The position numbers were made by a program, and so were the translations under genes. Source: a virus. Taken from it: DNA of 44,125 nucleotides. The notes under the pieces were generated by a model. The model saw only the letters and a list, made by a program, of their open reading frames with translations. It did not search any database and was not told the origin of the DNA. Shown piece by piece: positions 948 through 23,586 of this stretch. The stretch covers positions 1 to 44,125 of the IMG/VR virus record IMGVR_UViG_3300045935_000016. The stretch is one strand, 5' to 3'. Every line of letters begins with the position of its first letter. Position 1 is the first letter of the stretch.

Positions 948-1498
948 TCATCCCCTCCCGGTGCGGCGCCGGTATCGTCCCAAACGGAATTGCCATCGTC
1001 CCAGATGGTAAAGCCGCGATCCCATAGCGATTGATCGATCGGCTCGATCGCGGCGGCGCCGTCATATGGTTCGGTCAACAGCCGGTTGCGGGTCTGATCC
1101 GATACGTCCGGCGTGATCCGGCTATGCTCTAGCTCGCATTCCAACTGAAGGAAGCGCTTGCGGCCGGCGATCTCTTTCGAGCGGCGGACGCGGAATAGCT
1201 CGGTCCGCATCGCCTGATCGTCCGGCCGCGTCGTCGAGCGGACAACGACGTCGATCGTCGCCGGATAGTCCTGCCAGCGGATCGAGATCATATGCGTAAT
1301 CGGCGTATCGACCTGCGTCGACTGATAGAACGTCGAGGCATAGGTCGGCTGGATATCGGCATGGACGGTCGCGATCGGGACGAGGGTCTCGGTCAGCGCG
1401 AGATCGTCGGCCGGCGACTGGTCCCGCCGGTAGAGCGTCACGAGCCAGCGTAGCGAGCCTACGGACGCCGCTAGAGCGCCCGAAGGGTTAGCCGGCAT
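944..1498 (-). CDS. Head-tail adaptor (head closure) protein
   Basis: The 184-residue protein fits the phage head-tail joining family (SPP1 gp16 type). It has a beta-rich core starting near LVTLYRR, then a segment with VHADIQPTYAST and HMISIRW, then FRVRRSKEIAGRKRFLQLECEL, the typical 'convert and refine' pattern of these small barrels. The acidic, Trp-rich tail (SLWDRGFTIWDDGNSVWDD) is an added C-terminal extension. It lies between the gp6-like connector and the gp10-like gene, the usual order. A 63-bp gap separates it from the upstream connector gene. Confidence 0.78.
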   Translation of the reverse strand: MPANPSGALAASVGSLRWLVTLYRRDQSPADDLALTETLVPIATVHADIQPTYASTFYQSTQVDTPITHMISIRWQDYPATIDVVVRSTTRPDDQAMRTELFRVRRSKEIAGRKRFLQLECELEHSRITPDVSDQTRNRLLTEPYDGAAAIEPIDQSLWDRGFTIWDDGNSVWDDTGAAPGGDE

Positions 1499-1561
1499 GA
1501 TCGCCCGGTCCCGGACCGCAAGGCCGCTCTGGCACCGCTAGGAAGCCGCGCGCGCGGGTGG

Positions 1562-2194
1562 TCAACCGGCAAACGTCCACAATCTGTAAGGATCGAGCAG
1601 CCGCCGGAACGCCGGCGGCATTTCCGCCGAGACGTCGCCCCGGTTCTCGTAATAGTGCGCAACCCCGACGAGGATCGCCATGCGGATTGGCATCGGGACC
1701 GCCGCCGGATCGTGGTCGGCGTAGCCGGCGGTATAGTCGATAATCATCGACTGCTGCGGGATGCGCGGGAGCAATTGCGGCTTGACCGCGACATAACCCG
1801 GCTCGACCGCGAGGTTCACGTCATAGTCATCAGGATCGGCGACCGTCATGTCGCCGAGCGCGCCCCAGGTGATCTGCTCGACCGAGACCGCCGGCGCGCG
1901 CGGAAGCTCGATCGGCCGCTTGACGAGCGGCGGCCAATTGAGCGGAAAGACGATCAGCGTTTGCGGAACGAGCGGCGTCGCGGTCGGCGGCGGCGCCCAG
2001 GTGATCGCGTATTGCAGCTTTTGCGTGAACAGCGCGCGGTTGAGATACGCCTCGGCTTCAAGCCGCGCGCTGGTCAGGTACAGCGCGATCAGCGCGTCGT
2101 CATAGCCGGCATCAATCCGGCAATGCTGGCGCGCGAGATCGATCGTCACTGGCTCGGCCGTCGGCGCCTGGATAACCCGAAAGCCGGCGGGCAA
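1562..2194 (-). CDS. gp6-like head-tail connector protein
   Basis: This 210-residue protein resembles gp6/phiE125 gp8-type connectors. It opens with the EPVTIDLARQHCRID segment, has an N-terminal helix pair (DDALIALYLTSARLEAEAYLNR), and ends with the characteristic IIDYTAGY, PIRMAILVGVAHYYENRGD and LLDPYRLWTF motifs. It forms the ring under the portal. The start chosen is TTG at 2192-2194, only 4 nt after the TAG of the preceding gene. A GTG further in would remove part of the conserved N-terminus. The longer open frame upstream overlaps two other genes and is basic, low-complexity sequence. Confidence 0.8.
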   Translation of the reverse strand: MPAGFRVIQAPTAEPVTIDLARQHCRIDAGYDDALIALYLTSARLEAEAYLNRALFTQKLQYAITWAPPPTATPLVPQTLIVFPLNWPPLVKRPIELPRAPAVSVEQITWGALGDMTVADPDDYDVNLAVEPGYVAVKPQLLPRIPQQSMIIDYTAGYADHDPAAVPMPIRMAILVGVAHYYENRGDVSAEMPPAFRRLLDPYRLWTFAG

Positions 2195-2198
2195 GCGC

Positions 2199-2438
2199 CT
2201 ATGCTTTCCTGACGATCCCGCCGGGCTGACGCAACGGCCCGGAGGTGCTACCCGACTCCTCCGGGACCGTTGCCGCTGGCGGGATCGGCACCAGGAGATC
2301 GAGCGGCAGGGCGAGCCGCTTCGCGTGAAGCTCTTGCGCCGCATCCATCGGGACGGCGATCAGTTCGCCCGCCATGTACATTGAGAACCGCCGAAGCGTC
2401 CGCATCCGGACCATCGTCCCCGGCGTAAGATCGCTCAT
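2199..2438 (-). CDS. Hypothetical protein in head operon
   Basis: A 79-residue protein of unknown function whose ATG overlaps the stop of the Ig-like gene (ATGA, 2435-2438). The middle is a short beta/alpha segment (FSMYMAGELIAVPMDAAQEL) and the C-terminus is Pro/Ser-rich and probably disordered. Its place between capsid/decoration and connector genes suggests a small head or completion component. No family is recognised. Confidence 0.6.
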   Translation of the reverse strand: MSDLTPGTMVRMRTLRRFSMYMAGELIAVPMDAAQELHAKRLALPLDLLVPIPPAATVPEESGSTSGPLRQPGGIVRKA

Positions 2439-2926
2439 CGGCGGCCGCCCCGGTCATGGTGCCGTCGCCGCTCGTGACCGTCTCGCGTCGTATCGCTACC
2501 GCCGCCGTTGTCCTCGGCGATCTCGACGCCGTTCGATGGGGGCGCCGTCGTCGATCCCGCCGCGTTGGTCGCGGTCACGACGCAGGTCAGGGTATGACCG
2601 GGATCGTCCGGCGTGACGGTATAGCTCGCGGCGTCGGTCCCGATATCCTCGCCGTCGCGCTGCCATTGGTAGGCGTAGCCGGTCGGGGTTCCCTCCCAAT
2701 TCCCCATCGTGCAATTGAGCTCCTCGCCGTCCTGCGAGACATACGGAACGTCGACATTGACCGGCGGCGACGTGACCGCCGGCGGAAGCTCGCCGACGAC
2801 GCCTAGCTCGACGAGCCGCGCCGCCTCGTCCTCGGTAAAGGCGGCGGACTCGCCGGCATAGTAGCTCGCATATTGCCTGTTGAACGTGACGACGACCTCG
2901 CGTTGCGGGATACCCTCGACCGACAT
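2435..2926 (-). CDS. Ig-like domain protein, probable capsid decoration
   Basis: A 163-residue protein directly downstream of the capsid gene. Residues 1-50 form a small N-terminal module (VVVTFNRQYASYYAGESAAF, then EDEAARLVELGVV). Residues about 60-140 are an Ig-like fold with LNCTMGNWEG, YAYQWQRDG and HTLTCVVTATNAAGS, including the paired cysteines and the core tryptophan of the fold. The last 25 residues are very basic (His/Arg). Phage Ig-like domains are common on virion surfaces, where they bind carbohydrate or cell surfaces. Here a decoration or accessory head protein is inferred from the position. Confidence 0.72.
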   Translation of the reverse strand: MSVEGIPQREVVVTFNRQYASYYAGESAAFTEDEAARLVELGVVGELPPAVTSPPVNVDVPYVSQDGEELNCTMGNWEGTPTGYAYQWQRDGEDIGTDAASYTVTPDDPGHTLTCVVTATNAAGSTTAPPSNGVEIAEDNGGGSDTTRDGHERRRHHDRGGRR

Positions 2927-2938
2927 TTGTCGCCTCCC

Positions 2939-4489
2939 TTATGCCGGGTCTTTGAGCGCCGGCGGTGCGTTGGCGCCGGTCGCGAGCGCCGGCCGGATCG
3001 CGGCGGCCTGCGACCATGTGGGGTTAAGCGGCTGCGTCGAGTAAGGCGCCCCCGGCGTCCCCGGAACCCCGGTAAATGACCAATCTTGCGTCAGCAGGAC
3101 GACGAGCGACTGAAGGTGTCGCATGTTGCAGTCATGCTCGGCGATCACGCGGAAGAGCGACTGATCCCGCTGGAATGACGAGACCATCGTCACGCCGTCA
3201 TTGTACGCCGCGACGTCGGACGCATCGACGACGACGTTGTACGTATCGGCGATGACAAAATCGGCCATATCGCAAAAGTAGATCTCGCTTCCTTTGGTAA
3301 AGGTCGAGACCGTGAGATTCGTCGGAATCTGCTGCGTCAGGCGGATCGGATAGCCTTCCCAGCGGCCGGCCTCGATCTCGTCTTTCCAGTAGAAGCCGCC
3401 GACCTGATCGCGCGCGAGCGAGATGAATCGCGCGATCGTCGGATGCATAAACCACGTCGGACGGATCATCCGCGACATGCCGTTTTGCAGCGCGAGGATC
3501 GCCGCCGAGGCGCCGGCGAGGATCGCGGTCAGCGCGTCGCCCGGCGCCGGCGTTGTCGGCATCGCGGTCACGGTCACGGTATTCGCCGCCAAGGCCAGAC
3601 GGCGCATGCCGATTGGCCCCTTGTCGGTCCCGTCGCCGCGAAGGAAAGCGAGATCCTCGCGCCGCGCGATCGTCTGGACGAGATCGTCCCGGACAATTTC
3701 CTCGACGCCGATCGGCGAGCGGCGGATCAGGTCATTCGAGACCGGGACCATCGCGGTCAGTTTCTTGGCGACGAAATTGACGTCATCGAAGCGCTCTTGA
3801 CTGATCGCGATATCGTCAAGCTCGTTCTGGTAAGCGGCCGTCGCGCCGCCGGCGAGACGCGGGATCGTCAGATTGCCCATTGGCATTCCGACTTCCATCG
3901 GCGAGGCGCCCCGGACCGCTGTCATCGCGCGAAGCAGCTCGATCAGATCGGCCATGAAATCCTGCGGGATCAGCGCGCCGCCTTCGCCGGTCACGCCGCT
4001 ATTGAGCGCGCGCGCGACGATATCGTCGCCGAAGCGGTTGCTGATGAATTCCGCCGCCTTTTCCATCGAGACGTGATTGAACCGCGCATGAAGCAGGCCG
4101 AGGACATAGCGGGACGCCTTGATCCCGCGTTTGTCTTTCAGCCCCGCGTCAGGATCGCGCCTTGCGCGCGCCGGCGCATTGGCGCCAGCCTGGACGCGGA
4201 AGCTCGCCCGGCGCGGCGCGCGCATAGCCGCTTCCTCGGTATCGTTCTCGTCGTCGTCCTCGCCGTTCGCGTCGGTCGCGCCCTCGGCGGCGGCCTGCAT
4301 CGCGGCGGCGACCCGTTGTAGCCGCTGGTCGATCGTTTGGAGCGCGGCGGCTAGCTCGTCGAAGGTCGTCGACTGCTCGTCGCTGACCGGCTTGTCGTCG
4401 TCGTCGGCTTTGACGATCTCGCCCATCTTGGCGACGACTTCAGCGCGCCGACGCTTTAGCTCGCGGTGTTTTTCCGATAGCGTTGCCAT
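2939..4489 (-). CDS. HK97-family major capsid protein
   Basis: At 516 residues this has the length and plan of an HK97-type capsid precursor. It has an N-terminal charged coiled-coil delta/scaffold domain (about residues 1-75, then an acidic linker) and a long mature region with LIPQDFMADLIELLR, FVAKKLTAMVPVSNDLI, LAFLRGDGTDKGPIG and FVIADTYNVVVD, all typical of the fold (P-domain long helix and A-domain). The C-terminal extension past WSFTGVPG is Pro/Ala-rich. It follows the protease gene with a 12-nt gap. Processing of the delta domain by the neighbouring S78 protease is expected from the family. Confidence 0.95.
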   Translation of the reverse strand: MATLSEKHRELKRRRAEVVAKMGEIVKADDDDKPVSDEQSTTFDELAAALQTIDQRLQRVAAAMQAAAEGATDANGEDDDENDTEEAAMRAPRRASFRVQAGANAPARARRDPDAGLKDKRGIKASRYVLGLLHARFNHVSMEKAAEFISNRFGDDIVARALNSGVTGEGGALIPQDFMADLIELLRAMTAVRGASPMEVGMPMGNLTIPRLAGGATAAYQNELDDIAISQERFDDVNFVAKKLTAMVPVSNDLIRRSPIGVEEIVRDDLVQTIARREDLAFLRGDGTDKGPIGMRRLALAANTVTVTAMPTTPAPGDALTAILAGASAAILALQNGMSRMIRPTWFMHPTIARFISLARDQVGGFYWKDEIEAGRWEGYPIRLTQQIPTNLTVSTFTKGSEIYFCDMADFVIADTYNVVVDASDVAAYNDGVTMVSSFQRDQSLFRVIAEHDCNMRHLQSLVVLLTQDWSFTGVPGTPGAPYSTQPLNPTWSQAAAIRPALATGANAPPALKDPA

Positions 4490-4501
4490 GACTCTAAACC
4501 C

Positions 4502-5191
4502 TTATGTTGCTGTTGCTAGTGCCAGTTGGAACGCGCGTCGGCGGCGCGCTCGTGCTCTTGTTAATTCTTCGTTGTAAGCGGTGACCTCTTCGCCGGTCAC
4601 AGGCGGCGTATCGGCGGCGATCGCGGTCCCTTCGCCGGGACCCGGCGCCTCGATCAGTGCTTCGGGATTGGCCGGGACGGTGACGACGGATAGCTCGACA
4701 AGCTCTTGCTCCTCGAAGTCGATCCCCGGGAACCAGTCGTCGGCGCCGCGCGATTTGTCGGTCGTATATTCCCAGGCGAGCGGTCGGAAGCCGACCGAGG
4801 TCGCGGCGATAAAGCCGCCGCGCGCGAGCCGGTAAACCGACTCCGCGAACTGTCCGCCTTCCGGCGTATCGCTCGGGATAAACTCGACCGACGCCTTCAG
4901 CGCGCCGTCCTCGATCGCGACGTCGAAGGCGCGGCCGATCGGTAGCCGGCTCGCGTCATGTCCCCATAGGACGACGGGATTCCGGCGAAAGTTTTTCAGG
5001 TCCCAGCCGGCGAGCGCGATCCGGTCCTGCTCGCGATCGACCGCCGCCGTCGAGATGGTAAAGCGTAGCGCGCGCGCCTCGCCGAGCGCTTCCGCCGGCG
5101 CGATGATCTGCTTGCGAAGTCCGATCGCCGCGCGGGTGACATTGCGTCCCCGGTTGAACGCCTTAAATTGCGTCGCGCTAACGATCTGCAT
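4502..5191 (-). CDS. HK97-type prohead protease (S78)
   Basis: This 229-residue serine protease cleaves the capsid delta domain and scaffold during prohead maturation. The family triad is visible: His78 in LWGHDAS, Ser132 in AATSVGFRP and the acidic residue Glu166 in ELVELSVVTVPANPEA. The core begins near residue 42 with RFTISTAAVDREQD. The N-terminal 40 residues are an extension, and the C-terminal Arg-rich tail is probably self-cleaved. The gene overlaps the portal gene by 14 bp. Confidence 0.93.
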   Translation of the reverse strand: MQIVSATQFKAFNRGRNVTRAAIGLRKQIIAPAEALGEARALRFTISTAAVDREQDRIALAGWDLKNFRRNPVVLWGHDASRLPIGRAFDVAIEDGALKASVEFIPSDTPEGGQFAESVYRLARGGFIAATSVGFRPLAWEYTTDKSRGADDWFPGIDFEEQELVELSVVTVPANPEALIEAPGPGEGTAIAADTPPVTGEEVTAYNEELTRARARRRRAFQLALATAT

Positions 5192-6551
5192 CGTCGCTTG
5201 CTCCCGGTTCGGCGCGCGGCGCGGCGGCGCCCGGCGCGGCGGCGCTTTCGCTCGGCGCGGTCGTCGTCTGCGCGAGATTGTCGGACGGAACGGCGGTATT
5301 GAGCGGGACGCGATACTCGTCGCCGTGACCGTCCTCGATCGGATTCATGTTCTCGCGCGCGCGGACCTCGTTCCGGTTCAGCCAGCCGTTAAGCGTCCCG
5401 ATCTGGTACGCCTGGAAGCGGGTCAAGAGATCGCCGCGCGTCATGTCGTCAAAGTCGAACTTGCATTCGAGCATTGCGCGCTCGTCGTCGAACAACAGGT
5501 GGTGGTCAAAAAGCTGCTCGATCGAGCGCGCGGTCGGTTTCAGCGCGCTATCGACGTATTGCTGATTCTGCTGCTCGATATTGTTCAGCGTCGCCTTGTC
5601 TAGCTCGCCGAGCCGGTGCGGCGGGACGCCATAGAGCCGGCAGATATCGATAACCTGAAAGCGCCGCGTTTCGAGAAACTGTGCCTCTTCGTTGGTAATC
5701 GCGATCTTGTCGAATTTCATCCCTTCCTCGAGGATCGCCGCCTTGTGCGCGTTCTGAACCCCGGCATGCGTCTCGCGCCAGCTATTCGCGATCCGGTCCG
5801 CCGCCTCTTTCGATAACGAGCCGGGATGCGAGATCACGCCGCCGACCTGACCGCCCTGGCGGAAGAGAATCCCGCCATGCTGCTGTGTCGCGAGCGCAAG
5901 GCCGATCACGTCCTGCGCGATCGCGATCGGCGAGACGCCGACGTAACCGTCCATCGAAATATTCTTGATATGGATCATGTCGTCCGGCGGGATCAGAATC
6001 CCCTGGCCGATCCGGCGCGAATTGATCCGGTACCAGAGTTCGCCGTCGTCGGTCAGCATGATCGTGCAGCGATCCGGCGCGATCGGGACAAGCTCGATCG
6101 GATTCGCGTCTTTGTCCCGCTCGATCGCGACAAACGCATTGCCGCGAAGGCAAATCGAGGTCACGGCATAGCCGATAAATTCAAACCATGTCTGCCAGCG
6201 GTTCGGCCGGCGGAAGAGCTTCGTCAATGGGTGCTGAAGCTCGCGACGGTAGCCGCCGCCGACCAAGCGGCGGCGGACGAACGGCGAGAGCATGGCGATA
6301 TCTTGCGAGATCGCCCGAATGCAGGAATAGACCGCCGCCGCCTGAAGCGCGGTAAACGGCGTGACCGGAACGCCGGTATTCGACGCATAGCCGCCGAGTG
6401 CCGCGTATAGCATCGGCTGCGGCCAGCCGAGACCGCCGAGCGTCGAGGTCACGGCGGCGTCCGCCTTGGTTTCCGACGCGACCGGCGTCGACGCCGGCGT
6501 CGCGGCCGCCGAACCGATCAGCCATTGACCGAGCCGCTCGCGGAAGCTCAT
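5178..6551 (-). CDS. HK97-type portal protein
   Basis: The 457-residue protein is the dodecameric DNA gateway of the capsid vertex. It shows the family signatures AAVYSCIRAISQDIAML, LRGNAFVAIERD, PPDDMIHIKNIS and, near residue 310, ICRLYGVPPHRLGELDKATLNNIEQQ, followed by the stem helix. The C-terminal 35 residues are Ala/Pro-rich and overlap the start of the protease gene. The start ATG overlaps the large terminase stop (ATGA, 6548-6551). Confidence 0.95.
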   Translation of the reverse strand: MSFRERLGQWLIGSAAATPASTPVASETKADAAVTSTLGGLGWPQPMLYAALGGYASNTGVPVTPFTALQAAAVYSCIRAISQDIAMLSPFVRRRLVGGGYRRELQHPLTKLFRRPNRWQTWFEFIGYAVTSICLRGNAFVAIERDKDANPIELVPIAPDRCTIMLTDDGELWYRINSRRIGQGILIPPDDMIHIKNISMDGYVGVSPIAIAQDVIGLALATQQHGGILFRQGGQVGGVISHPGSLSKEAADRIANSWRETHAGVQNAHKAAILEEGMKFDKIAITNEEAQFLETRRFQVIDICRLYGVPPHRLGELDKATLNNIEQQNQQYVDSALKPTARSIEQLFDHHLLFDDERAMLECKFDFDDMTRGDLLTRFQAYQIGTLNGWLNRNEVRARENMNPIEDGHGDEYRVPLNTAVPSDNLAQTTTAPSESAAAPGAAAPRAEPGASDDADR

Positions 6552-8224
6552 CCGAGGACCAGCAGCCCGCGCGTTTCGTATACCGAGGTCGTCTCGACAT
6601 GCGTCATGGCGCGGGCGATCGCCATAATCAGCGCAACCGCCGCGTCGATCTTGTTCTCGGGACGCGCCTTGCGCGGGTAGACGTTGCCGCGCGCGTCATA
6701 GTGTCCGACGACGTTCCCGACGCACCACGCGAGCGCGCCGTTGCCGTCGTGACGAAGCCGGCCCGCCTGGATCGCGGCGTCTAGCTCTTTGGTCGGCTCG
6801 CTGAAGTTTTGCGTCGTCGCGCGGAATTCGACGACCGGGACGCCCTCAGCGGCGAGTCGTTGGGCAAGCTGCGTCGATCCCCAGGGATCATACGCGACCG
6901 ATAGGACATTGAACCGCCGGCCGAACTCGATCAGGTCGGTCTCGATCTCGCCGAAGTCGGTTTCATTGCCCGGCGTGATCCGCAAAACGCCGTCATGCGC
7001 CCAGCCGGGATATGACGGGTTGCGCGCTTCCATCACGGCGGACTCGTTCAGATAGCAGCGGGCGAATACCGCGTATCGCGCGCCGTCGCGAAAGACCAGC
7101 GCGATCGCCGCGAGATCGGTCTTGCTCGCGAGATCGAGCGCGATATGACACGGCTTGCCGGCGAAGTCGTCGAGCCGAAGCGTCGGGTCCGCGCAATTTT
7201 GCCATGCGCGCATGCTGAAAAGCGCTTCGTTGGCGCCGACCCATAGGTTCAGGTGCCGGGTTTTGAACGCGGACTCCTGCGCGGCGTTGTTCCGCGCCTG
7301 CTTGGCGATCGCGCGGATCGCGTCCGGCTGGACGGTCTGTCCCCAGCCGGGATTCACCTTCCGCCACGTCGTCTCGCTCCACGGATCGTCGTCCGGATCG
7401 GCGGTATAGATCAGCGCAAACAGCCGATCGTCGTCTTGTATCCCGTCGAGGATACGGATCGAGTATTCCCAAAGCTGCCGACCGACGCCGGCGCTGTTGT
7501 CGGTCGCCGTCGTGATGCAGATCAAGAGCGGCTGAATCCGCTTGCCCATCGCGGTCAGGAGGACGTCATAGACCTCGCTCGTCTTGTGACTGGCGATCTC
7601 GTCGCAGACCGCGACCGCGACGTTGAGACCGTCGAGCGCTTTCGCGTCCGACGAGATCGGCATCAGCTTGGAAGCGGTCCGTTCCTGATAGATCGAATTG
7701 ACCATGACCTTGACGCCGTATTCCCGGCGAAGCCGGGACGAGCGGCGGACCATCTGCTGCGCCATATCGAACAAGATGCGCGCCTGATCTCGCGTGACGG
7801 CGGCGGCGTAGCCTTCCGCACCGCCTTCTTCCTCCATGAAGGTCGCGTACAGCGCGAGCGGCGCGACGACGGTCGTCTTGCCATTGCCGCGCGGGACCGC
7901 GACGTACGCCTGCCGGAAGCGTCGCAAACGGGTCCCGGCCTCGACGAAGCCGAAGAGGTTCGCGTAAACGAAGCGCTGCCAATCCATTAGCTCGATCGGC
8001 TTGTCGGCGTCCGGTCCCTTGATGTTCGGTAGTAGAGACGCGAACGCCATCGCGCGTTGCGCGAGCTTCCTGTCGAAGCCCCAGGGACCGACGCCGGCCT
8101 CGGCGTCAGCTAGTTCGCGGTTGAAGCGCTCGACGGCCTTACGTGCCGTCGCGCATGCGCCGGGATCGTCAGCCAGCTTCCGCGCGAATTCGATCGCTCT
8201 GGCGACGTGATCCACACTAGGCAT
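6548..8224 (-). CDS. terL: Terminase large subunit
   Basis: A 558-residue packaging motor ATPase and nuclease. Walker A is PRGNGKT (residues 111-117), Walker B is VAVCDEI (Asp208, Glu209), and the coupling motif is ITTATDN at 238-243. The RNase H-like nuclease carries acidic residues Asp364 (ALDLASKTD), Asp446 (VAYDPWGS) and Asp527 (NKIDAAVAL). The arrangement is that of the HK97/lambdoid Terminase_1 group, often linked to cohesive-end packaging. No cos site was identified here. It overlaps the small subunit by 8 bp and the portal gene by 4 bp. Confidence 0.96.
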   Translation of the reverse strand: MPSVDHVARAIEFARKLADDPGACATARKAVERFNRELADAEAGVGPWGFDRKLAQRAMAFASLLPNIKGPDADKPIELMDWQRFVYANLFGFVEAGTRLRRFRQAYVAVPRGNGKTTVVAPLALYATFMEEEGGAEGYAAAVTRDQARILFDMAQQMVRRSSRLRREYGVKVMVNSIYQERTASKLMPISSDAKALDGLNVAVAVCDEIASHKTSEVYDVLLTAMGKRIQPLLICITTATDNSAGVGRQLWEYSIRILDGIQDDDRLFALIYTADPDDDPWSETTWRKVNPGWGQTVQPDAIRAIAKQARNNAAQESAFKTRHLNLWVGANEALFSMRAWQNCADPTLRLDDFAGKPCHIALDLASKTDLAAIALVFRDGARYAVFARCYLNESAVMEARNPSYPGWAHDGVLRITPGNETDFGEIETDLIEFGRRFNVLSVAYDPWGSTQLAQRLAAEGVPVVEFRATTQNFSEPTKELDAAIQAGRLRHDGNGALAWCVGNVVGHYDARGNVYPRKARPENKIDAAVALIMAIARAMTHVETTSVYETRGLLVLG

Positions 8225-13931: not shown

Positions 13932-14180
13932 TCAGGCGACTTCGCAGGGCTTGCTATCACTCCGTACGGGTCGCGCCGGACCGGCGTCGAGTTGGCCTAG
14001 CGTCAACCGATAGCCGGCGCGGTCGGCGATCTTCAGCAGCGTCGCAAAGTGGCGCGGTGGAATGCCGTCGTCATTGCGCCAATGGCTGATCGTCGTGTTC
14101 GACAGGCCGAGCTTTTCGGCAAGCCGGACTTGCCCGCCGAGCCGCTTCGATAGCTGGTCGATGATCCGGCTGTGCTCCAT
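13932..14180 (-). CDS. Cro-like HTH regulator, first leftward gene
   Basis: An 82-residue HTH protein (helices in GQVRLAEKLGLSNTTISHWR) of YdaS/Cro type, opening the leftward early operon. The ATG at 14178-14180 is preferred. The alternative TTG at 14208-14210 lies inside operator O1 and inside the promoter. With the predicted -10 at 14189-14194 the transcript starts about 2 nt before the ATG, so the message is nearly leaderless. By position it should be the lytic-side regulator opposing the rightward HTH gene. Confidence 0.82.
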   Translation of the reverse strand: MEHSRIIDQLSKRLGGQVRLAEKLGLSNTTISHWRNDDGIPPRHFATLLKIADRAGYRLTLGQLDAGPARPVRSDSKPCEVA

Positions 14181-14188
14181 CAAGTCCG

Positions 14189-14217
14189 ACGGTAATTGCC
14201 TACAAGGCAACGGTCAA
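14189..14217 (-). promoter_or_regulatory. Leftward early promoter (PL-like)
   Basis: On the minus strand: -35 TTGACC (14217-14212), 17-bp spacer, -10 TACCGT (14194-14189). The spacer consists almost exactly of the operator TTGCC-N5-GGCAA, so repressor binding would block polymerase directly. The same arrangement occurs at 19627-19655. Confidence 0.6.
14196..14210. promoter_or_regulatory. Operator O1
   Basis: TTGCC TACAA GGCAA, an inverted repeat with 5-bp arms, inside the spacer of the leftward promoter. It is one of five such sites in the window. Confidence 0.75.
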
Positions 14218-14309: not shown

Positions 14310-14750
14310 ATGCTAGTGAGAATCCGGCGCAAAAAGTATCCTCGCCGCATGATCAAGCAGGCGAAGCGGGGGATCAGCATTGACACGCTGGCCGGCGTCG
14401 GCGTGCGGCTTCGTATGCTGCGTGGGGTTCTCGACCGCACGCAAGCCGAGTGGGCAGACAGGTTAAAGATTTCGCGGCAGATGCTGAACAAGTGGGAGCA
14501 AGGCGTCCGACAGCCCAACATGGATAAGCTCATAGTGATCTGCGACACGACCGGATGCACCCTGGACTTCATTTTTCGCGGCCAGGTGGGCATGGACATG
14601 AGAGAGGGGCTCAGGAGGGCTTTGCTCGTTTCCTATGGCGACAGCCCTTACGTTTCCGAGCTTTTCGCGCCATCCGTGCCACCGCCTCCCCCATCTTCTC
14701 CAGCGCGTCGGCGGCGTAAGCAGGGTCCACGGTCTGACGCGGCGGGGTAA
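14310..14750 (+). CDS. CI-like HTH repressor (short, no LexA-type domain)
   Basis: A 146-residue protein with an HTH_3 domain at about residues 30-90: VGVRLRMLRGVLDRTQAEWA, then RLKISRQMLNKWEQGVRQP. It has no self-cleaving peptidase domain, so RecA-driven autocleavage is not expected and induction must work differently. The Pro-rich, basic tail (SVPPPPPSSPARRRRKQGP) coincides with an antisense gene at 14611-14787. The start is either the ATG at 14310, which has its SD too close, or GTG at 14316, which has GGGAG 6 nt upstream. Operators flank the gene on both sides. Confidence 0.75.
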   Translation: MLVRIRRKKYPRRMIKQAKRGISIDTLAGVGVRLRMLRGVLDRTQAEWADRLKISRQMLNKWEQGVRQPNMDKLIVICDTTGCTLDFIFRGQVGMDMREGLRRALLVSYGDSPYVSELFAPSVPPPPPSSPARRRRKQGPRSDAAG

Positions 14751-21621: not shown

Positions 21622-21695
21622 CGACCGATTACAAGCAAGCCGGCGGGCTCCGTCCCGGCGATCAAACGGACGTTTGCAGAGGTGGCCGAGTCTAG
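21618..21695 (+). CDS. Possible 25-residue ORF after int
   Basis: ATG at 21618 overlaps the int stop (ATGA) and has GGGAGG upstream. The peptide begins MTTDYKQAGGLRPGDQTDV. It ends within the first copy of the leader motif that precedes several small genes further on. It is supported only by coupling and the SD. Confidence 0.3.
   Translation: MTTDYKQAGGLRPGDQTDVCRGGRV
21671..21690 (+). repeat. Leader motif copy 1
   Basis: cgtttgcagaggtggccgag, differing at two positions from the copy at 23088-23107. Unlike the later copies it is not followed at once by a long frame: the ATG at 21700 opens only a 3-codon frame and the methyltransferase starts at 21722. The 5' ends of some tRNAs resemble this string, but no tRNA follows. 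Confidence 0.6.
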
Positions 21696-21721: not shown

Positions 21722-22657
21722 ATGATGCGAGTGCTCGACCTGTTCAGCGGCATCGGCGCGTTCAGTCTCGGCTTGGAGCGGGCCGGCATGACCACGACCG
21801 CATTTTGCGAGATTGATCCATTCTGCCGGCGTGTGCTCGCGAAGCACTGGCCGCGCGTTCCTATCTATCCAGACGTTCGCCACTTATCGGCACAGCACTT
21901 AACTGGCGATGGACACCGTGACATTGACCTCATCTGCGGCGGCTTCCCCTGCCAGGATATCAGCGTCGCAGGACGCGGAGCCGGCATCGGTGGCGAGCGA
22001 TCCGGCCTCTGGTCCGAGTTCGCCCGGCTCATTGGCGAGGTGGGACCGCGCTACGTCATCGTGGAGAACGTCGCAGCTTTGCTTGGACGGGGGCTTGGAG
22101 ACGTTCTCGGAGACCTGGCCTCGCTCGGGTATGATGCGGAATGGCACTGCATTCCCGCTTCGGCCGTTGGCGCACCGCATGAACGGGATCGCGTCTGGAT
22201 TATGGGGCACGCCAACGGGACAGGATGCCAAAGGCTCTCAGTGGAGCACCGGGGCGAACGGCACACGCATTCTCAAGCTGAACGGACAAGTGCAACGCTG
22301 GCCGACACCGACAGCAAGCGAGCAGAACACCAGCAGCGCACAGGCGGAAGCACGGAAGCGGTCGAACGGGATTTGCTTGGCGGATGCTGCACGGCGGTGG
22401 CCGACGCCGGCATCGCGCGACTGGCGACACCCGAACGCCAAATCATATGCGGATCGTGGTGGCGGGACGAAAGGCGAGCAATTGCCGAACGCAGTGGGTG
22501 GAGCACTGAACCCGACGTGGGTCGAGTGGCTGATGGGGTTGCCTCTCGGGTGGACAGATTGCGGGGACTCGGCAATTCGCTCGTCCCTCAGATCCCGGAA
22601 ATAATCGGGCGGGCGATTATGGCTTACGAGGCTTCGGCTTCGGAGCGTGCAGCATGA
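21722..22657 (+). CDS. DNA cytosine-C5 methyltransferase
   Basis: A 311-residue C5 methyltransferase. Motif I is VLDLFSGIGAFSLGLERAG, motif IV is GGFPCQDISVAG (catalytic Cys77), motif VI is VIVENVAAL, motif VIII is ERDRVWI, and motif X is RLRGLGNSLVPQIPEIIGRA. The target-recognition part (about residues 162-260) reads as poorly structured sequence and coincides with another convincing frame (21909-22604). It probably protects phage DNA from host restriction. There is no cognate nuclease beside it. Its last 41 bp overlap the convergent HTH gene. Confidence 0.88.
   Translation: MMRVLDLFSGIGAFSLGLERAGMTTTAFCEIDPFCRRVLAKHWPRVPIYPDVRHLSAQHLTGDGHRDIDLICGGFPCQDISVAGRGAGIGGERSGLWSEFARLIGEVGPRYVIVENVAALLGRGLGDVLGDLASLGYDAEWHCIPASAVGAPHERDRVWIMGHANGTGCQRLSVEHRGERHTHSQAERTSATLADTDSKRAEHQQRTGGSTEAVERDLLGGCCTAVADAGIARLATPERQIICGSWWRDERRAIAERSGWSTEPDVGRVADGVASRVDRLRGLGNSLVPQIPEIIGRAIMAYEASASERAA
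21909..22604 (+). CDS. Overlapping-frame 'WPTPT' protein within the methyltransferase gene
   Basis: An open frame of 231 residues, in another frame than the methyltransferase. It has features of a family found beside phage C5 methyltransferases: SSWRTSQLCLDGGLETFSET, WPRSGMMRNGTAFPL, repeated WPTPTAS and WPTPASRDW, and a conserved end LNPTWVEWLMGLPLGWTD. Over about 22205-22480 this frame looks more protein-like than the methyltransferase frame. It may be a real overprinted gene, a product of frameshifting, or a preserved relic. No clear start or SD is seen before ATG 21909. Confidence 0.4.
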   Translation: MDTVTLTSSAAASPARISASQDAEPASVASDPASGPSSPGSLARWDRATSSWRTSQLCLDGGLETFSETWPRSGMMRNGTAFPLRPLAHRMNGIASGLWGTPTGQDAKGSQWSTGANGTRILKLNGQVQRWPTPTASEQNTSSAQAEARKRSNGICLADAARRWPTPASRDWRHPNAKSYADRGGGTKGEQLPNAVGGALNPTWVEWLMGLPLGWTDCGDSAIRSSLRSRK

Positions 22658-22808
22658 GCCGCATCGCCACCCTGGCCGGACCTGGCACGCCTCGGTCGCC
22701 GGCCTCCCACATCTGCACCGTGCGCAGCGTGCATTCCAGCGCGGCGGCGAACTGCTGGCGTGTCATGCCCAGCCGCTCGCGCACCGCCGCCACGTCAGCG
22801 GGCGACAC
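22617..22808 (-). CDS. Small HTH protein, Aca-like
   Basis: A 63-residue protein that is little more than one helix-turn-helix (VAAVRERLGMTRQQFAAALE, then CTLRTVQMWEAGDRGVP). The start is GTG at 22808, 14 bp inside the upstream small gene. It is the second gene of a two-gene minus-strand operon whose promoter contains two palindromes. Short HTH repressors in this position are typical of anti-CRISPR-associated (Aca) regulators, and also of simple toxin-antitoxin or moron repressors. It probably represses its own promoter. Confidence 0.75.
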   Translation of the reverse strand: MSPADVAAVRERLGMTRQQFAAALECTLRTVQMWEAGDRGVPGPARVAMRLMLHAPKPKPRKP

Positions 22809-22998
22809 GGCGCTGCTTCGGCGTGTGGACGGCGATCACGGTGCCGTCGAGCAGGATGCGGTGGGCGTGGTCGCTGTAGGCGTAGAGGCTGATCTGCGCC
22901 GCCGCCTGCTCGGTCGTGGTCGTCACGGCGCCCTCGGAGCGAAGCTCCCAGCCGGCGCCCCGGTCCATCTCGATCCGCATGGTGTGGGTGTTTTCCAT
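22795..22998 (-). CDS. 67-residue protein in HTH operon, anti-CRISPR candidate
   Basis: The first gene of the minus-strand mini-operon. The sequence is a small mixed alpha/beta protein: TMRIEMDRGAGWELRSEGAV, an acidic/Thr-rich helix (TTTTEQAAAQISLYAY), and a closing strand pair (HRILLDGTVIAVH). ATG 22998 is immediately after the -10 (leaderless). No family is recognised. Guilt by association with an Aca-like HTH gene, small size and an isolated inverted operon make it an anti-CRISPR or other anti-defence candidate. It could also be one partner of a toxin-antitoxin pair. Confidence 0.6.
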   Translation of the reverse strand: MENTHTMRIEMDRGAGWELRSEGAVTTTTEQAAAQISLYAYSDHAHRILLDGTVIAVHTPKQRRVAR

Positions 22999-23004
22999 GC
23001 CCAC

Positions 23005-23044
23005 CTTATAGCGAATAATGTTCGTGGGTGCAAGAACAATGTTC
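23005..23044 (-). promoter_or_regulatory. Leaderless promoter with two palindromic operators
   Basis: On the minus strand: -35 TTGCAC (23033-23028), 17 bp, -10 TATAAG (23010-23005), and the ATG begins 6 nt after the -10. Two near-identical palindromes flank the -35: GAACATTGTTC (23044-23034) and GAACATTATTC (23022-23012), centred 22 bp apart, i.e. about two helical turns. They are the likely binding sites of the HTH protein at 22617-22808. Confidence 0.72.
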
Positions 23045-23087
23045 GCGCCCTAGCGGATATACAGAATGCTAAGTCCCCGTAAACCCT

Positions 23088-23107
23088 CGTTTGCAGGAGT
23101 GGCCGAG
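23088..23107 (+). repeat. Leader motif copy 2
   Basis: cgtttgcaggagtggccgag directly before ATG 23108. Degenerate versions precede ATG 23587 (cgtttgtgagaggtagccg), ATG 23885 (agttagcggagatagcccg), ATG 24145 (ccttagtggaggaagcccg) and ATG 24371. Each supplies the SD (GGAG or GAGG) plus a conserved AGCC/GGCC-G just before the start. Confidence 0.65.
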
Positions 23108-23548: not shown

Positions 23549-23586
23549 CCCCTACATCCGATAATCGCGTTTGTGAGAGGTAGCCG

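Follow-up and report, generated by a model that had tools for sequence, protein, structure and literature searches.

A two-gene cassette occupies positions 22617–22998 on the minus strand of the window, by which we mean the whole 44,125-bp stretch of viral DNA analysed here. Both open reading frames (ORFs) lie where the original prediction had placed them: one encoding a 67-residue protein, hereafter P1 (69 aa if a GTG at 23004 is used as the start), and one encoding a 63-residue protein with a single helix–turn–helix (HTH), the two overlapping by 14 bp. Coordinates are collected in Table 1. AcaFinder describes acr–aca operons as genes of <200 aa on one strand, with gaps of <250 bp and an HTH gene of <150 aa (PMC9765179), a description that these short, overlapping, same-strand genes fit.

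Table 1. Features of the cassette and of its immediate neighbourhood in the window.
Feature	Coordinates	Strand	Description
P1 gene (67 aa)	22795..22998	-	ATG at 22998; stop ends at 22795
HTH gene (63 aa)	22617..22808	-	GTG at 22808; stop ends at 22617; single-HTH, Aca10-like putative autorepressor
C5-cytosine DNA methyltransferase gene	21722..22657	+	PF00145, 3.6e-43; phrog_363, 2e-85; convergent
3'–3' overlap of HTH and methyltransferase genes	22617..22657		Last 41 bp of methyltransferase gene; position fixed in relatives
Core promoter TTGCAC-17-TATAAG	23005..23033	-	−35 TTGCAC, 23033–23028; 17-bp spacer; −10 TATAAG, 23010–23005
Operator O1 GAACATTGTTC	23034..23044	-	Perfect 11-bp palindrome abutting the −35 (putative)
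Operator O2 GAACATTATTC	23013..23023	-	11-bp palindrome in the −35/−10 spacer (putative)

A further ORF on the plus strand (22654–23082) begins with an ATGA on the methyltransferase stop. We rejected it as a real gene, the minus-strand frames being best in every divergent pair and yielding a known HTH. It is most likely an antisense shadow, because in BLOSUM scoring the sense frame came out on top against every divergent relative (for instance, 171 versus 96 for locus L006 and 137 versus 94 for L012). Counts of silent changes gave no separation of the strands because the third codon positions of both coincide.

The window is a 44-kb viral record of a temperate, contractile-tailed phage, with genes for portal, large terminase, tail sheath, baseplate, RecT-like and Gam-like proteins, an excisionase, an integrase and a repressor pair (13932–14210 and 14310–14750). 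The cassette lies near the early genes, after the integrase and the methyltransferase, on its own strand and with its own promoter. A motif, CGTTTGCAGRRGTGGCCGAG, which looks start-associated, directly precedes small plus-strand ORFs in the window (21664–21690 and 23081–23107, with looser forms near 23568, 23863 and 24123) and was also seen by eye in the related loci L002, L003 and L004. ARAGORN reported a tRNA-Val at 8103–8185 (plus strand), antisense within the large terminase gene and probably spurious.

Related loci keep the gene plan and vary its parts

P1 has relatives at four close and eight more distant loci, all on IMG/VR viral contigs; one of these (L007) is apparently a second copy of L006, and another (L013) shares only an N-terminal segment with P1. 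Searches of INPHARED, PLSDB and contigs of bacterial genomes gave no relatives, and inference of the host is therefore limited. A GcrA-like ORF, noticed by eye in a related phage (L012, 6058–6591, minus strand), suggests an alphaproteobacterial host. An NusG-like ORF (WGVVHTHPQAERWA..), likewise found by eye, lies between early and terminase genes in L006, L008 and L017 (about 1100–2950, minus strand) and is perhaps a phage antiterminator.

The related IMG/VR loci keep the gene plan, and plan and operators together are conserved in nine loci. The first gene can be exchanged: in L017 and L020 the promoter, the first four codons and the HTH (73% identical) are kept, but the first protein is a different one, of 58 aa. 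Reading the L017 protein as a diverged P1 was unsupported past the four shared codons (43 of 500 shuffles scored as high), and no P1 homologue was found elsewhere in that record. L006 has an additional 66-aa ORF between the two cassette genes, and in L010 and L011 first proteins of the P1 family occur with another HTH and operator. The exchange looked for in acr–aca operons is found here both as the same HTH with other cargo (L017) and as the same cargo with another HTH (L010 and L011).

Paired palindromes at the promoter

The strong leaderless promoter proposed from the sequence held up on inspection: it is sigma-70-like, the P1 ATG lies 6 nt downstream of the −10, the predicted transcript start is at or next to this ATG, and the P1 mRNA would be leaderless if the −10 is right. 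Both of the near-identical 11-bp palindromes expected there are present, with a start-to-start spacing of 21 bp rather than the 22 bp first given. By chance, GAACATTRTTC with at most one mismatch is expected 0.67 times per window, and tandem palindrome pairs of any kind 0.6 times per Markov-1 sequence; O1 and O2 are the sole side-by-side pair of this sort in the window, GC-only repeats aside, and the P1 promoter is the only place with a paired operator. Comparative evidence speaks more strongly than these chance statistics for the palindromes as candidate operators, because the one adjoining the −35 does not vary among the five closest loci, whose flanking sequences differ.

O1 (GAACAWTGTKC) touches the −35 at all nine loci with the main HTH type; five of these loci (L003, L004, L008, L012 and L017) have TTGACA as their −35. 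The offset of O2 is 21–22 bp in the window, L002, L006, L008, L009 and L017 and 33 bp in L003, L004 and L012, or about two and three helical turns, which would fit two repressor dimers facing the same side. The −10 stands 6–7 nt from the first codon in eight of the nine promoters; in L008 the codon at that place is not a start codon, a downstream ATG being the probable initiation site, and L012 is the exception, with a 21-nt leader containing GAGGAGG. L010 and L011 have a different inverted repeat, TGTCCCATTGTC, as well as a different HTH, so that the operator varies in step with the HTH type. The criteria for acr–aca operons include one or two inverted repeats inside the core promoter (PMC9410906), and O1 and O2 are such repeats at nine loci.

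When 2.9 million viral contigs were scanned blind for the O1/−35 motif, 43 stretches came up, and in eight cases this HTH follows. The other 35 lack the HTH within 1.1 kb, and those listed look like ordinary sequence with no paired site. An earlier, looser operator pattern drew unrelated matches too. A literature search for leaderless acr operons found nothing relevant.

The HTH protein is Aca10-like

In Pfam, the 63-aa protein matches HTH_3 (2e-6) and HTH_31 (3e-6), and it matches general phage repressor families too. The proposal that it is Aca-like was supported by a search of PDB sequences, in which the best match is Aca10 (7XI5; 7e-6 with the single sequence and 7e-8 with a profile), followed by HigA2, with Aca3 (9VT3) lower (profile, 3e-3). 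Aca10 is a proven repressor of an anti-CRISPR operon that binds a promoter inverted repeat as a dimer; R34, Q37 and R44 contact DNA, R44 being critical, and G49 is a dimer residue (PMC9410881). These four residues align with R29, Q32, R39 and G43 of the HTH protein, of which Q32, R39 and G43 are nearly invariant across its family. Judged by sequence matches, a generic HTH effect would not by itself explain the resemblance, because the phage's own repressors, used as controls, match P22 C2-type repressors or, weakly, only a designed protein, and not Aca10. We nevertheless label the protein Aca10-like rather than Aca10, because both E-values miss the AcaFinder threshold for homologues of known Aca proteins (E < 1e-10, coverage > 60%; PMC9765179). 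It extends little beyond the HTH core, its C-terminal tail being freely replaced among relatives, and it probably binds O1 and O2 in its own promoter as a putative autorepressor.

Read by eye, a distant relative of this HTH in L048 (IMGVR 2728368988, 2500–5222) adjoins CRISPR-like repeats (GTTCCCCGC..GCGGGG), a CysH-like ORF and ORFs with a Cas6/Csf-like look. This is possibly a phage-borne type IV-like CRISPR locus.

P1 belongs to a new protein family

The P1 family, defined by the motif RIEMDRGxGWELRxEG...HR...DG, was aligned from ten sequences with 40–93% identity to P1 of the window; 18 residues are invariant, chiefly in the RIEMDRGxGWExR hairpin. Sequence searches of Pfam, PHROGs, NCBIfam and PDB sequences found no relative of P1 among known Acr proteins, a known Acr homologue in the operon being one more acr–aca criterion, nor one among Dmd or other anti-defence proteins, and neither Dmd nor AcrIF9 came up when a profile was run against PDB sequences with a cut-off of E 10. 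The ten sequences had no match to RelE/HigB or any other toxin family in Pfam and PHROGs at E ≤ 1. With 8 acidic and 8 basic residues P1 is not acidic, and we discarded the idea of a DNA-mimic anti-restriction protein.

An AlphaFold2 model built from the ten sequences (pLDDT 86.8, pTM 0.70) predicts a beta-beta-alpha-beta-beta fold, with two hairpins around one helix. Foldseek gave nothing significant for this model (E 0.15 or worse), its top PDB rows including T4 and RB69 Dmd and AcrIF9, and no RelE-type toxin is among the listed fold matches. VIA-align gave Z 7.2 for RB69 Dmd over 60 of 62 residues (6.3 for the second Dmd), 7.0 for a LepA domain and 5.0 for AcrIF9 over 61 residues, values under 8 that may reflect a common arrangement, a shared fold showing no function. 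The predicted structure may thus, by matches that are not significant, place P1 near an anti-CRISPR and a phage anti-toxin in a small structural neighbourhood to which LepA belongs as well. The best DALI match of AcrIF9 is itself Dmd (Z 5.3; PMC7714069), and AcrIF9 has been reported adjoining Aca2 (PMC9410906).

Genes for methyltransferases or methyltransferase-like proteins overlap the HTH gene at a fixed base

Across the loci whose neighbour can be read, the HTH gene overlaps the convergent gene 3'-to-3' at a fixed base. Counted from the HTH start, the neighbour's stop comes after 151 nt in the window, L002, L003, L006, L008 and L017, and after 147 nt in L010 and L011; in L009 (151) and L012 (154), open frames terminate at the corresponding base. 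Pfam identifies the neighbours in the window, L006, L010, L011 and L012 as C5 methyltransferases that differ in kind. Those of L002, L003, L008, L009 and L017 are phrog_12600-like proteins with PPCQ and EHP motifs. An attempt to assign phrog_12600 to the methyltransferases by profile comparison with C5 enzymes failed (1% probability); C5 methyltransferases are numerous among the top PDB hits of a weak model (pLDDT 63; best E 0.01), and we leave these proteins as methyltransferase-like. This overlap with varied C5 methyltransferases or a methyltransferase-like protein is new here, and a literature search on acr genes beside methyltransferases found nothing relevant.

The DNA common to the loci ends just past the neighbour's stop, at the 9-bp TCATGCTGC, where every neighbour ends in ..AA and the HTH gains a new C-terminal tail. 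The fixed junction may reflect either recombination that repeatedly places new methyltransferases there or selection of the pairing as a joint counter-defence. The suggestion that the adjacent methyltransferase fits an anti-defence island agrees with its constancy at the locus, but a recombination slot is equally possible. In L004 (5340–5440), the alignment apparently shows no more of the methyltransferase than its final ~15 codons, as though a deletion had removed the gene but spared the junction.

Discussion

The plan first proposed for this locus (a small gene, an Aca-like HTH, promoter operators and a phage setting) holds in the relatives, where the cargo is exchangeable, and the description 'Acr/aca-like autorepressed cassette' is well supported by comparison of the loci. 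As to function, we favour an autorepressed anti-host-defence unit resembling an acr–aca operon, with a probability of roughly 0.6, of which an anti-CRISPR in particular would account for perhaps one third. By analogy with acr–aca operons, the HTH protein would be absent when the phage DNA enters, so that the strong leaderless promoter fires and P1 is made at once. P1 would then bind and block a target in the host, most likely part of a defence system, such as a CRISPR, toxin–antitoxin or restriction effector. Meanwhile, the HTH protein, translated from the same mRNA via the overlap, would dimerize, occupy O1 and O2 around the −35 and shut the promoter, so that expression stays low at later stages as well as in the lysogen.

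Other roles are conceivable for such a pair. It might serve the convergent cytosine methyltransferase, either by controlling its dosage (as antisense over the 3' end or through a C-protein-like HTH) or with P1 as an anti-restriction partner, given that every locus with a readable neighbour has a C5 methyltransferase or methyltransferase-like protein overlapping at the fixed base. This is unlikely: the paired operator stands solely at the P1 promoter in the window, recombination at the shared TCATGCTGC can yield the fixed junction and, because unrelated methyltransferase types change while the cassette stays, cassette and methyltransferase do not form a matched pair. Slightly less probable still is a phage-internal regulatory pair (Cro/CII-like, or devoted to non-defence host take-over) carried as an early-region moron. 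The position beside early genes and the matches of the HTH to general phage repressor families would suit such a role, but the phage already has a repressor pair, and the cassette has a strand and a promoter of its own and changes its cargo.

Least probable, in our estimate, is a toxin–antitoxin module in HigBA order, in which P1 would be the toxin and the HTH protein its antitoxin and autorepressor, together stabilizing the prophage or excluding other phages. HigBA likewise has a small gene followed by an overlapping HTH gene, and among PDB matches of the HTH protein the HigA2 antitoxin comes second, after Aca10. Yet the ten P1 sequences match no toxin family, the two-hairpin model has no RelE-type toxin among its listed matches, the HTH protein barely exceeds its core and replaces its tail freely, and neither protein keeps to one partner, P1 occurring beside either of two HTH types and one HTH beside either of two first proteins.

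Returning to the anti-host-defence unit, a more specific version is tentative and on balance doubtful: a modular counter-defence island comprising a leaderless autorepressed cassette, exchangeable small inhibitors, a fixed-base junction with exchangeable cytosine methyltransferases, and P1 as an inhibitor of host defence with a Dmd/AcrIF9 fold. If the reading as an anti-host-defence unit is true, a new protein family from phages of uncultured hosts joins the anti-defence repertoire, found via its repressor and operators and not via known Acr proteins. The operator motif and the fixed methyltransferase junction offer a simple handle for finding more cargo genes.

Among known systems, HigBA shares gene order and HTH class with the cassette and differs in that P1 has no toxin family or fold match. 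The phage-borne Dmd of T4 and RB69, an antitoxin against RnlA/LsoA, is like P1 in size and in predicted fold over nearly the whole chain (Z 7.2 and 6.3), with 3–6% identity and no significant Foldseek match; we know of no HTH partner of Dmd. AcrIF9 is similar in size and general fold (Z 5.0 over 61 residues), with about 13% identity and no relation by sequence search. Aca3, Aca6 and Aca9 resemble the HTH protein in size, HTH_3 class and HigA2-like character, the similarity of Aca3, to which the sequence comparison was confined, being weaker than that of Aca10. The acrIC7–acrIC6–aca10 operon of Pseudomonas citronellolis differs in its unrelated cargo, in operator arms and in having one functional site, as against two matching sites at 21–33 bp and a predicted leaderless start here. 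Nonetheless, Aca10 (65 aa; PDB 7XI5) is the nearest solved HTH relative, with the DNA-contact residues R34, Q37 and R44 kept, although the identity of about 40% extends over no more than some 42 residues. Both operons place small genes first and the HTH last behind a strong promoter with an internal inverted repeat (TTGCAA-16-TATTCT for aca10), and both operators are odd palindromes with a CATTG centre, the Aca10 site core GCTCATTGAGC sharing 7 of 11 bases and the same centre with GAACATTGTTC.
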